Shown here in pieces: positions 10,205 through 34,699 of a DNA stretch of 40,259 nt; positions within the stretch are counted from its first letter, which is position 1; every line of letters starts with the position of its first letter. The notes under the pieces were generated by a model that worked only from the letters and a program-made list of their open reading frames with translations, ran no database searches and had not been told where the DNA came from. The stretch is from a virus: positions 1 to 40,259 of IMG/VR virus record IMGVR_UViG_3300018080_000312. The stretch is one strand, 5' to 3'. The position numbers were made by a program, and so were the translations under genes.

Positions 10205-10310
10205 CCTAGTATGTACCCTGGTAGCCGCCGCCATAGGTGTCTTGCTGGTGATCATAGGGATCGCAACGGGGGCACCGGCTGCGGTTTTATCACATGTACC
10301 GACACTTTGA
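10185..10310 (+). CDS. 41-residue single-pass membrane protein
   Basis: Start ATG 10185 sits behind AAGGAGGCACCGC; a longer upstream frame lacks such a site. MTKIHHDLVCTLVAAAIGVL continues into LVIIGIATGAPAA, one clear transmembrane helix. It overlaps the tiny zinc-ribbon ORF and the first 17 bases of the methyltransferase gene. Function unknown. Confidence 0.55.
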   Translation: MTKIHHDLVCTLVAAAIGVLLVIIGIATGAPAAVLSHVPTL

Positions 10311-11202
10311 CCTGTTCAGCGGTATCGGTGGATTTGCTTTGGCCGCTGGGTGGGCGGGATGGACTACGGTAGGATTCGCGGAGACGAACGACTATGCAAG
10401 CAGAGTGCTCAAAAAACACTGGCCCGATATCTCCAACTACGGCGACGTGCGCGACGTCCCGGCACAAACAGTTGAGCTTGTTACCGGAGGGTTCCCCTGC
10501 CAGCCGTTCAGTCAGGCCGGGAAGCGAAGAGGCGCGAAGGATGACCGTTACCTCTGGTCGGCAATGTTTACAGTTATCAAAAGATGTCGGCCCACTTGGG
10601 TGCTTGGTGAAAACGTGCCTGGAATCATCAACATGGAACTCGACACAGTGCTTTTTGATTTGGAAGCCGAAGGCTACGCCACAAGGACGCTTGTTATACC
10701 GGCTTGTGCCGCGGACGCCTCGCACCGAAGGAACCGGGTCTGGATTGTGGCCTACCATAACAGCGCAGGACAGCGAGAACTGCGGTGGACCGAGTCAACA
10801 GCGCCGCAATACGAGGTCGCTCAATGCCGTAGTCAGAATATGGCCCACGCCGGTAGCCAACGATGCAACAGGCAGCCAATACACATACAACCAAGGCAAC
10901 CACAAGAGCATATCGCTGAAATTGCCAGGGGCAGTCAGAATGTGGCCCACACCGAAAACGCCCACGGGCGGGGGGCAGACGATACGGAACACACCGGGCG
11001 GGGGTATCAGGAAACTAGAGGACAGGGTGAGCCAGGTGGAAGGATACAACACTGGCTCCCTGAACCCGACGTGGGTCGAGTGGCTGATGGGGTTTCCCAC
11101 CGGGTGGACCGACTTAGATGTTTAGGTAATGCAGTAGTGCCGCAAGTGGCATATCCGCTATTGCGGTGGATGAGAGAAATATTACAAGAGGAGGCACCAT
11201 GA
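10294..11202 (+). CDS. DNA cytosine-5 methyltransferase
   Basis: 302 residues. FDLFSGIGGFALAA is motif I (SAM binding), GFPCQPFSQAG is motif IV with catalytic Cys69, LGENVPGI holds the ENV motif VI (106-108), HRRNRVWIVA is motif VIII, and RLRCLGNAVVPQ is motif X. The enzyme transfers a methyl group to C5 of cytosine in a specific site. No restriction partner is adjacent, so it probably protects phage DNA or alters the host. The stretch between motifs VIII and X, rich in His, Gln and Gly, is the likely target-recognition region and coincides with a long ORF in the next frame. The 3' end overlaps the following gene (ATGA). Confidence 0.9.
   Translation: MYRHFDLFSGIGGFALAAGWAGWTTVGFAETNDYASRVLKKHWPDISNYGDVRDVPAQTVELVTGGFPCQPFSQAGKRRGAKDDRYLWSAMFTVIKRCRPTWVLGENVPGIINMELDTVLFDLEAEGYATRTLVIPACAADASHRRNRVWIVAYHNSAGQRELRWTESTAPQYEVAQCRSQNMAHAGSQRCNRQPIHIQPRQPQEHIAEIARGSQNVAHTENAHGRGADDTEHTGRGYQETRGQGEPGGRIQHWLPEPDVGRVADGVSHRVDRLRCLGNAVVPQVAYPLLRWMREILQEEAP
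10394..11125 (+). CDS. Overlapping ORF in +1 frame within the methyltransferase gene
   Basis: 243 codons lie entirely inside the C5-methyltransferase gene, shifted one base. ATG is preceded by GGAG (about 10 bases upstream), so internal initiation is possible. The translation is not random-looking: it contains GRLLYRLVPRTPRT, SGLWPTITAQDS, MWPTPKTPTGGG and SLNPTWVEWLMGFPTGWTDL. From memory, the LWPTP and LNPxWVEWLMGFPxGWTDL patterns recur in phage-encoded proteins. The host frame is complete, with all methyltransferase motifs, so this is not simply a frameshifted gene. Whether the second frame is translated is unknown. Confidence 0.45.
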   Translation: MQAECSKNTGPISPTTATCATSRHKQLSLLPEGSPASRSVRPGSEEARRMTVTSGRQCLQLSKDVGPLGCLVKTCLESSTWNSTQCFLIWKPKATPQGRLLYRLVPRTPRTEGTGSGLWPTITAQDSENCGGPSQQRRNTRSLNAVVRIWPTPVANDATGSQYTYNQGNHKSISLKLPGAVRMWPTPKTPTGGGQTIRNTPGGGIRKLEDRVSQVEGYNTGSLNPTWVEWLMGFPTGWTDLDV

Positions 11203-33243: not shown

Positions 33244-33738
33244 TTGTCCAAGGAATGGAAACCGGAGGTGCGCGAGGTCGCGATCGGGGATCTGAGGATA
33301 TCCGGGAAGAATCCCAGGATACATTCTTCGGAACAAGTGGAGAAGATCGTGCGGTCGTTGCGGGAGTTCGGATGGACGAACCCCGTACTTGCCGATAAAA
33401 ACGGAACGGTCGTCGCGGGACACGGACGTTTGGAGGCGGCGAGGAAGTTGGGGATGGATCGCGTTCCCGTTATTTCCCTTCCGTTCGGCGGGTGTTCGGC
33501 GGAGGCGTATATGTTGGCCGACAACAGGATCGCGTTCGACGGCGGTTGGGACGAGGCGAAACTCCGTTTGATTTTGGAGTCGTTGTCCGAAAAGGATATT
33601 GATCTTTCGCTGACCGGATTCGAGGAGGACGAGTTGGCGGCGTTGGAAAAGGCCGTGATTGAATTGGCCGAGGAAAGGGACATCGACGGCGAGATCGCAA
33701 CGACGAACAAATGCCCGAAATGCGGATATGAATGGTAA
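33244..33738 (+). CDS. ParB/Srx-domain protein of methyltransferase cassette
   Basis: 164 residues from TTG 33244, eight bases after GGGAGG; a longer TTG start at 33196 would lie in the promoter -35. VREVAIGDLRISGKNPRIHS, LREFGWTNPVLADKNGTVVA and AGHGRLEAARKLG are the ParB/Sulfiredoxin core as found at the N-terminus of phage DNA methylases. The end NKCPKCGYEW is a zinc-knuckle-like tail. It probably contacts DNA or regulates the adjacent methyltransferase. Codon use is AT-leaning (GTT, GTC, GGA), unlike flanking genes. Confidence 0.75.
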   Translation: MSKEWKPEVREVAIGDLRISGKNPRIHSSEQVEKIVRSLREFGWTNPVLADKNGTVVAGHGRLEAARKLGMDRVPVISLPFGGCSAEAYMLADNRIAFDGGWDEAKLRLILESLSEKDIDLSLTGFEEDELAALEKAVIELAEERDIDGEIATTNKCPKCGYEW

Positions 33739-34699
33739 CGGGTTGTCCTTCGTGTCCTTGTTCGCTGGATGCGGGGGTTCGTCGTTGGGTTATTTGCGGG
33801 CGGGATTCAACGAGCTTTTGGCAATCGACTTGGATATTGACGCGATGGCCACGTTCGTGATCAATTTTCCCGATATTCCCGTTTGGAGAAAGGACATAAG
33901 GGATGTCGGCGGGGACGAGATCCTCCGGTTCTGCGGATTGCCGAAGGGCGGGCTTGGCCTTCTCGACGGGAGTCCGCCGTGTCAGGGGTTCTCCATTTCC
34001 GGGAAACGTATTGTTTCCGATTCGAGGAACGACCTTTTCGGGCATAATATCCGGTTGATCCGCGAGATCGAGCCGAAGGCGTTCGTTATCGAGAACGTTC
34101 CCGGGATGGCCGTTGGAAGGATGCGCGGGATTTTCAACGGATACATGCGGGCTTTGCGGGCTTTGCCGTATTGCGTCAGGTGCAGGCTCATGAACGCGGC
34201 ACGGCATGGCGTCCCTCAGGCGAGGCGGCGTCTTGTGTGGCTCGGCGTCAGGAACGATCTTTCCGTGATTCCGGAATTCCCGATCGGCGATCACCGTTCC
34301 GTGACGGTCAGGGAGGCTTTGCGCGGATGCCCCCGTGGTCCGGTGCCGAAATTTGACGACAGATATGCGAAGTTGTGGTGGAGGGTGGAACCGGGTCGGA
34401 GTGCGGTGGATGTTATCGGGAAAGGATACAACAGTTGTTATAAAATACATCCGGACAGGCCCGCTCCCGTTCTTCCGGCGTTGCAGACGGGGAGAGGGTT
34501 CGCCACGGTATGCCATTGGGCGGAGCCGCGGGCGCTTTCCATAGCGGAAGCGAAGCGGTTGCAGAGTTTTCCGGACGGATTCACGATATCGGGCGGATAC
34601 CAGTCGCAATGGAGGCAATTGGGGAATTCCGTGCCGCCGAAGCTGATGGAGGCGGTGGCGGTTGCGATGGGGAACGTGTTGGGGGGCGCGGATGGATAG
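33728..34699 (+). CDS. DNA cytosine-5 methyltransferase (second)
   Basis: 323 residues from ATG 33728, overlapping the ParB-like stop. SFVSLFAGCGGSSLGYLRAG is motif I, GSPPCQGFSISG holds catalytic Cys85, VIENVPGM is motif VI, PQARRRLVWLGV is motif VIII and WRQLGNSVPPKL is motifs IX-X. It methylates C5 of cytosine at an unknown site. No restriction endonuclease accompanies it, but Vsr does, as in the Dcm/Vsr arrangement of E. coli. Codon use differs from its neighbours. Confidence 0.9.
   Translation: MNGNGLSFVSLFAGCGGSSLGYLRAGFNELLAIDLDIDAMATFVINFPDIPVWRKDIRDVGGDEILRFCGLPKGGLGLLDGSPPCQGFSISGKRIVSDSRNDLFGHNIRLIREIEPKAFVIENVPGMAVGRMRGIFNGYMRALRALPYCVRCRLMNAARHGVPQARRRLVWLGVRNDLSVIPEFPIGDHRSVTVREALRGCPRGPVPKFDDRYAKLWWRVEPGRSAVDVIGKGYNSCYKIHPDRPAPVLPALQTGRGFATVCHWAEPRALSIAEAKRLQSFPDGFTISGGYQSQWRQLGNSVPPKLMEAVAVAMGNVLGGADG

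Follow-up and report, generated by a model that had tools for sequence, protein, structure and literature searches.

A methyltransferase gene in the virus record IMGVR_UViG_3300018080_000312, whose full 40,259 bases are called the window here, most probably encodes a naturally split C5-cytosine DNA methyltransferase with its two subunits written in two reading frames of one DNA. The frame-0 ORF, alpha, occupies 10294-11202 on the + strand and specifies a C5-cytosine methyltransferase of 302 amino acids; its residues 3-175 match PF00145 (E 3.2e-37), and the protein also matches phrog_363 (E 5.3e-72). Alpha comprises motifs I-VIII, then a low-complexity stretch and then motif X, and it carries the PCQ cysteine loop as well as GNAVVPQ. 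The loop lies in GGFPCQPFS (10486-10512, +), which we take to be motif IV; its catalytic Cys codon is at 10498-10500 and the motif is uninterrupted in the window. Inside alpha and one base over (+1), an ATG-initiated ORF of 243 codons, beta, runs from 10394 to 11125 (+), as the initial annotation had noticed. That annotation had also described patterns in register across the two frames, and VWIVAYHNSAGQ and SGLWPTITAQDS are indeed translated from identical window DNA, one stretch read in two ways. The same gene is present with 100% identity over 1,309 bases in a larger viral contig (L084, IMGVR_UViG_3300017991_004311, 98,936 bases).

A catalogued phage protein family already covers the second frame and bears the name of the overlapped gene. 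Beta matches phrog_1008 (E 2.7e-36), a 329-position family labelled DNA methyltransferase; the label is the name of the overlapped gene and does not reflect a catalytic motif in beta itself. Beta had no match in Pfam at the cut-off. The N-domain of beta (residues 33-112; 10490-10729, +), delineated by the profile bN and AF2, lies over alpha motifs IV-VIII. It is followed by PTP-type repeats recognized in alignments of relatives, namely LWPTITAQDS (10745-10774, +), IWPTPVANDA (10838-10867, +) and MWPTPKTPTG (10940-10969, +). Residues 219-241 form a motif-IX-like element located by hhalign, NTGSLNPTWVEWLMGFPTGWTDL (11048-11116, +), which at the beta C-terminus reads LNPTWVEWLMGFPTGW. Alpha motif X, HRVDRLRCLGNAVVPQVAYPLLRWMREILQ (residues 269-298; 11098-11187, +), was placed by the same means.

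In 59 of 83 loci, beta is preceded by a start codon whose Shine-Dalgarno matches over at least 5 nt, at an allowed spacing of 4-12 nt. Among other start-like triplets in the overlaps, 78 of 2,321 have such a Shine-Dalgarno (3.4%), and the true background is higher than this figure because several starts were considered in each locus and the best one was counted. In the window, the GGAG that had been pointed out near the beta ATG is found at 10380-10383 (+), 10 nt 5' of the ATG, as a possible Shine-Dalgarno of beta. The match is weak, with 4 nt only, and the 24 residues after the ATG are not common to the relatives, whose start usually lies nearer (E)QLTLFPEDS; the beta start in the window is therefore uncertain.

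We measured the openness of the +1 frame by shuffling synonymous codons with the alpha protein held fixed and counting +1 stops in 20,000 permutations. The 243 codons of beta contain 0 stops, with 4.93 expected (P = 0.00035). Nine other window ORFs treated likewise contain 7 to 30 stops in +1, with P(<=observed) between 0.089 and 0.895. The window also offers an internal control in a second C5 methyltransferase, a single-chain enzyme at 33659-34699 (+; phrog_116, E 3.4e-71), which has 8 stops in +1 and keeps its VIII-X region in its own frame. Averaged over 84 sequences, in four of which the overlap is shortened by stops or frame breaks in alpha, fixing alpha leaves an expectation of 3.6 stops in +1, and fixing beta one of 6.5 in frame 0. 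Against a profile made from the other loci, window beta scored 283.7 bits, and 20 permuted versions of it gave a mean of 84.1 and a maximum of 117.0. Profiles trained on half of the loci were then applied to 89 held-out loci and the window, training and test loci being homologous to each other. Real beta reached a median of 256.9 bits versus 82.9 for alpha-keeping permutations, and real alpha 376.9 bits versus 189.3 for beta-keeping permutations; in every one of the 90 sequences, each exceeded its 20 permutations without exception. These analyses confirm that the two-frame arrangement is real and far above chance.

Purifying selection acts on the alpha and beta frames alike. Substitutions were compared in 43 pairs in which each locus was used once, related loci still being among them (an earlier set of 60 had overlapping pairs). 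Differences at alpha codon positions 1/2/3 amount to 0.118/0.061/0.388 5' of the overlap and 0.148/0.099/0.431 3' of it. Within the overlap, the first 90 codons show 0.114/0.068/0.193 and the remaining codons 0.357/0.213/0.273. Alpha wobble differences are lower inside the overlap than outside in 36 of the 43 pairs; the other 7 show no such reduction, which counts against the split-enzyme model. Beyond these first 90 codons of the overlap, variation is greatest at alpha position 1, equivalent to beta position 3, and beta is thus the leading frame there. Protein identities follow the same division: 0.869 for alpha and 0.772 for beta in the first 90 codons, 0.485 and 0.643 in the second part (the VIII-X stretch), where beta is higher in 40 of 43 pairs, and 0.792 and 0.859 in the last 23 codons. 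The initial annotation had proposed looking for purifying selection in both frames and for homologs of the second protein. The former is borne out by the permutations and the substitution patterns, with a +1 rate that is not neutral and most relatives free of stops; as for the latter, independent homologs exist in phrog_1008 and among IMG/VR relatives.

It is scarcely credible that alpha alone is coded and that +1 is open and conserved-looking merely through alpha conservation and codon bias. Such effects do occur: alpha conservation itself yields a mean beta score of 83 bits, and high-GC mycobacteriophage relatives can have +2 open as long as +1. Openness alone is weak evidence in those relatives because +2 can be equally open, and counts of open +1 frames alone were left out for them. 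The median for real beta is nevertheless 257 bits and lies over every permutation in 90/90, wobble change is suppressed inside the overlap only, and the other methyltransferase of the window is interrupted 8 times in +1. The alpha-only reading is already contradicted by the substitution pattern, the held-out profiles and the protein identities. Chance openness and codon bias were likewise ruled out by permutation, substitution pattern and the window's own ORFs as controls.

Genes of this type are widespread. Scanning IMG/VR with beta yielded at least 592 relatives, of which 80 loci were kept, and beta relatives are present in 137 of 50,697 phage records and 10 of 72,556 plasmids. In bacterial genomes, where the single pattern WVEWLMG supplied 374 candidate stretches, 347 of these proved to be relatives; 80 were kept, and by record titles the relatives span Bacillota, Pseudomonadota, Bacteroidota and Acidobacteriota. 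An alpha-based scan, free of selection for beta, supplied 25 loci. These include the window's own gene (L084) and four identical alphas (L096-L099), and they share two contigs (L089, L091) with the beta set, so that 20 distinct intact alphas remain. The +1 alpha/beta overlap is found in 23 of these 25 loci, as well as in 79 of 80 viral and 77 of 80 bacterial-genome loci, the latter two sets having been fetched by beta similarity and so containing beta by selection. Six loci fall outside the +1 register; they are rearranged or have indels, and beta-type sequence still occurs in all of them. Of the 202 sequences scanned, the window and two copies of it included, 181 have an unbroken alpha and an unbroken beta. 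The intact cases number 74 viral and 72 genome loci out of 80 each, with 71 and 65 distinct alphas, respectively. No beta apart from any alpha was found among the loci, most of which were fetched by beta or alpha similarity. On plasmids H103 and H105, no restriction enzyme is annotated beside the gene in the stretches inspected. Five copies of the two-frame gene, all with the same score, are found at distinct positions on one Roseovarius MAG chromosome (L157-L161).

As gene callers normally retain one of two overlapping ORFs on the same strand, one half of these enzymes goes unrecorded or carries a wrong label. Several phage records annotate one of the two frames only, and annotators who came upon the overlap passed it over in silence. 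The record of Xanthomonas phage PhiXhv-2 has beta alone, as the methyltransferase, and that of Paenibacillus phage Bloom annotates both ORFs as cytosine methyltransferase. In the E. coli phage K1ind3 record, beta is a 'putative Mte8-like protein', a name that passages of PMC5582158 mention for K1 phages without explanation. If beta is required, methyltransferases cloned from annotation alone would seem dead and their specificities would be left unassigned.

We placed beta by comparing a profile of 46 beta proteins with one of 17 single-chain phage methyltransferases. Residues 112-239 of window beta align to residues 191-353 of the mycobacteriophage WillSterrel enzyme (L205), the region between its motifs VIII and X, with a probability of 97.3 and E 2.3e-11. 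The tail of the single-chain enzymes, captured in an alignment of 15 single chains and two beta ORFs (A4), has two consecutive parts, RLxxxFPEWMMGxPxGWV and then GISRNDQLRIIGNGVVPQQ. The first part matches window beta 219-239 (hhalign probability 95.4, E 1.7e-8) and the second matches window alpha 269-298 (94.6, E 6.9e-8). We call the first part motif-IX-like for its place before X and its likeness to what we take to be the motif IX pattern. In the window DNA, the corresponding segments follow each other as 11048-11116 and 11098-11187; the order of the tail is kept and the frames differ. As aligned, the contiguous IX-X tail is divided between two frames in the window. The alpha chain does not hold the motif IX or the VIII-X recognition region; the homologous region is in beta, and the alpha stretch at this place is poorly conserved.

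This collinearity of the window DNA with a single-chain gene, IX and then X with only the frame differing, would also be expected if two programmed frameshifts, from 0 to +1 after VIII and back before X, joined the segments into one chain. We consider this very improbable, since +1 is conserved well 5' of VIII, in the N-domain (beta identity 0.772 over the first 90 codons), beta has its own start with a Shine-Dalgarno in the 59 of 83 loci described above, and in L048, L154, L110 and L111 alpha ends and beta holds the remainder.

The bN profile detects the N-domain of beta in 211 of 235 sequences, and in 210 of these it lies in +1 of the catalytic part; the lone +2 N-domain belongs to a locus that has indels. 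The other 24 of the 235 sequences, mostly mycobacteriophage single chains, gave no N-domain match. Although AF2 yields a poor model for beta by itself (pTM 0.32), the N-domain is confident at about residues 40-110 and is predicted as two helices and a hairpin. A fold search with the beta model returned nothing at Z >= 5 (best Z 3.7), and searching solved structures with the beta profile gave no match. The single-chain family profile matched solved structures by its N-terminal half alone; with the A4 profile, 6 matches at E up to 10 were obtained, none significant, the best real methyltransferase having E 0.78. Residues 1-391 of the AF2 model of the single-chain enzyme superimpose on M.HhaI with Z 22.8 and an rmsd of 3.7 for 230 residues. 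Motifs I-VIII and the IX-X tail are confident in that model, and the PTP stretch, residues 162-301, has a pLDDT under 50 and is predicted to be disordered; a folded recognition domain within it would be hypothetical. The LPTPxASD repeats, predicted to be disordered, may serve as a recombination or binding array. Their number varies widely among otherwise similar mycobacteriophage methyltransferases (L205-L216).

The initial annotation had suggested either overprinting or a family created from frame-shifted methyltransferases, and each idea is supported for a different part of beta. Overprinting holds for the N-domain, which looks truly overprinted: 210 of its 211 matched loci have it in +1 of the catalytic region. 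The frame-shift origin holds for the C-terminal half, which is homologous to an in-frame region of other methyltransferases. An unlikely alternative is true dual coding without partnership, in which alpha would be active alone and the protein that shares its DNA would be an unrelated effector, such as an anti-restriction or regulatory protein. The absence of any structural relative of the N-domain in our searches would fit such a protein, as would the persistence of the N-domain in +1 of some single chains that already have IX and X. Against it, beta has homology to methyltransferases in its C-terminal half, IX and X are exchanged between the two ORFs, and alpha lacks the IX region, with a match to X only.

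This exchange can be followed across the relatives, among which putative modules change frame. In the Arthrobacter phages Leona and ArV1, alpha stops after VIII and the +1 ORF holds the repeats, IX and X. L048 and L154 have the same end of alpha, and their beta contains IX and RVxRLKCLGNAVVPQ in tandem, the two elements that overlap in the window; beta also carries IX and X in L110 and L111, where alpha again ends after VIII. IX is located in alpha in L112. Gordonia phage JKSyngboy has IX and X in alpha, and the N-domain and repeats in beta. The WillSterrel alpha contains the repeats, IX and X, and an N-domain ORF persists in +1. Some single-chain relatives retain a short +1 ORF with N-domain and PTP, for which a role of beta as donor of IX alone would not account. 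In L174 and L184, the catalytic part, the N-domain ORF and IX or X pieces are spread over three frames, which may be real or due to assembly errors.

In the split enzyme that we favor, alpha in frame 0 would provide the catalytic half, motifs I-VIII and X. Beta, in +1, would be translated from its own start codon inside the alpha gene by internal initiation and would supply the other half, that is, the N-domain, the string of W/L-PTP repeats and the motif-IX-like element. One mRNA would give rise to both proteins, which would assemble into one enzyme. Target recognition would fall to beta, through its N-domain or its repeats, and the alpha-frame stretch between VIII and X would be mainly a by-product of beta coding that serves as a linker. 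Its substrate would probably be the DNA of the phage itself, and protection from host restriction is one conceivable purpose.

There is precedent for such an arrangement in M.EcoHK31I. The beta polypeptide of that enzyme lies in an alternative frame inside alpha, and both polypeptides are required for activity. Window beta likewise lies in another frame inside alpha. M.EcoHK31I is a two-polypeptide C5 methyltransferase for YGGCCR (Lee, Kam and Shaw 1995) and, as outlined in PMC3404938, its larger subunit holds motifs I-VIII and X and its smaller subunit motif IX. The window has the same division, with I-VIII and X in alpha and IX, labelled by position and pattern, in beta. A working mode like that of M.EcoHK31I is the best reading of the locus by analogy. 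The predicted target recognition domain of M.EcoHK31I is assigned to alpha in the same source, whereas the VIII-X stretch of window alpha is poorly conserved and follows the coding of beta. The PTP repeats and the module exchange between frames are described here for the window family, and M.EcoHK31I is likened to it by motif division, not sequence. M.AquI (CYCGRG) has I-VIII in alpha and IX-X in beta, according to the account in PMC3404938. Its cut between VIII and the C-terminal motifs recurs in the window family, with the same division in Leona, ArV1, L048 and L154. In contrast to M.AquI, X of the window stays in alpha and beta lies wholly within alpha; an M.AquI-like X in the smaller subunit is found in L048, L154, L110 and L111.

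The single-chain mycobacteriophage methylase WillSterrel gp71 (L109, the same as L205) shares a homologous catalytic part, PTP repeats, IX and X with the window gene; unlike the latter, single chains of this type hold the repeats, IX and X in the alpha frame, within one chain. They are probably related to the actinophage family treated in PMC9957025, the main text of which does not contain the terms 'frameshift' or 'alternative frame'. The locus also resembles overprinted viral gene pairs, as presented in PMC8227390, in that two proteins come from one DNA; it differs from these in that one half of beta has its homologs within the family of the very gene it overlaps. In the open-access literature, we found no paper about phage methyltransferases coded in two frames. 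What is new here is how widely the arrangement occurs, the selection on both frames and the movement of modules from one frame to the other. The system is a rare case of a full-length overlap, of about 240 codons, that is amenable to testing in E. coli, with natural variants in which the same modules do not overlap as controls.

The wider proposal is an old and widespread methyltransferase class with its halves on two frames, in which an overprinted domain is combined with recognition modules that swap frames via small indels, and a subset of which has a stop hop before the catalytic Cys; we give this roughly even chances. The subset came to light in related genes, the catalytic site of the window itself having no insert. 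In L030 and L063, out of the first 80 loci, a stop and one further codon stand exactly between GGFP and the alpha catalytic Cys codon. Over L001-L234 there are 211 sites without an insert, two with a stop plus a codon and zero with a sense insert. We scanned IMG/VR with patterns coding for GG-[FY]-P-stop-x-C-Q-P. Methyltransferase-like genes make up 16 of 28 pattern stretches for TGA, 9 of 12 for TAG and 36 of 44 for TAA; the sense counterparts gave 0 of 11 for TGG and 0 of 1 for Cys-Pro-Cys. A genome scan for the stop insert returned none in 96 genomes and 4 raw pattern matches in 391 genomes, and three related isolate or prophage genes (L335, L336, L338) are without it.

The 61 stop-insert viral genes, 48 of them distinct, are otherwise intact in frame. 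They comprise L030, L063, L235, L237-L240, L243, L244, L246, L251-L253, L255, L256, L259, L261, L262 and others of L268-L323. Beta is open over at least 150 codons in 56 of the 61, and a motif-X-like string follows in alpha in 45, with six genes running off the contig. In all 61, the stop is followed by CTN (30), CCN (23) or TCN (8); the CCN that precedes it was imposed by the search pattern. The use of all three stops, each followed by a codon with which a proline tRNA could re-pair, directly or through one G-U pair, suggests an in-frame hop that would restore GGFP-CQP. We regard the stop insert as a candidate for a ribosomal 'stop hop' that occurs naturally and in frame. A 2016 review (PMC5009743) reports such hops for synthetic constructs and knows of no natural in-frame case. 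Selenocysteine at the stop was considered and dropped, as TAA and TAG occur besides TGA. In 11 of the 61 genes, an HNH-endonuclease-like string lies in alpha shortly before the stop insert, in frame between motifs III and IV (for example, L063/L237, L252, L253, L256, L259, L273 and L303). By analogy, it is possible that the HNH segment and the stop insert are linked in the manner of T4 gene 60 and its homing endonuclease.
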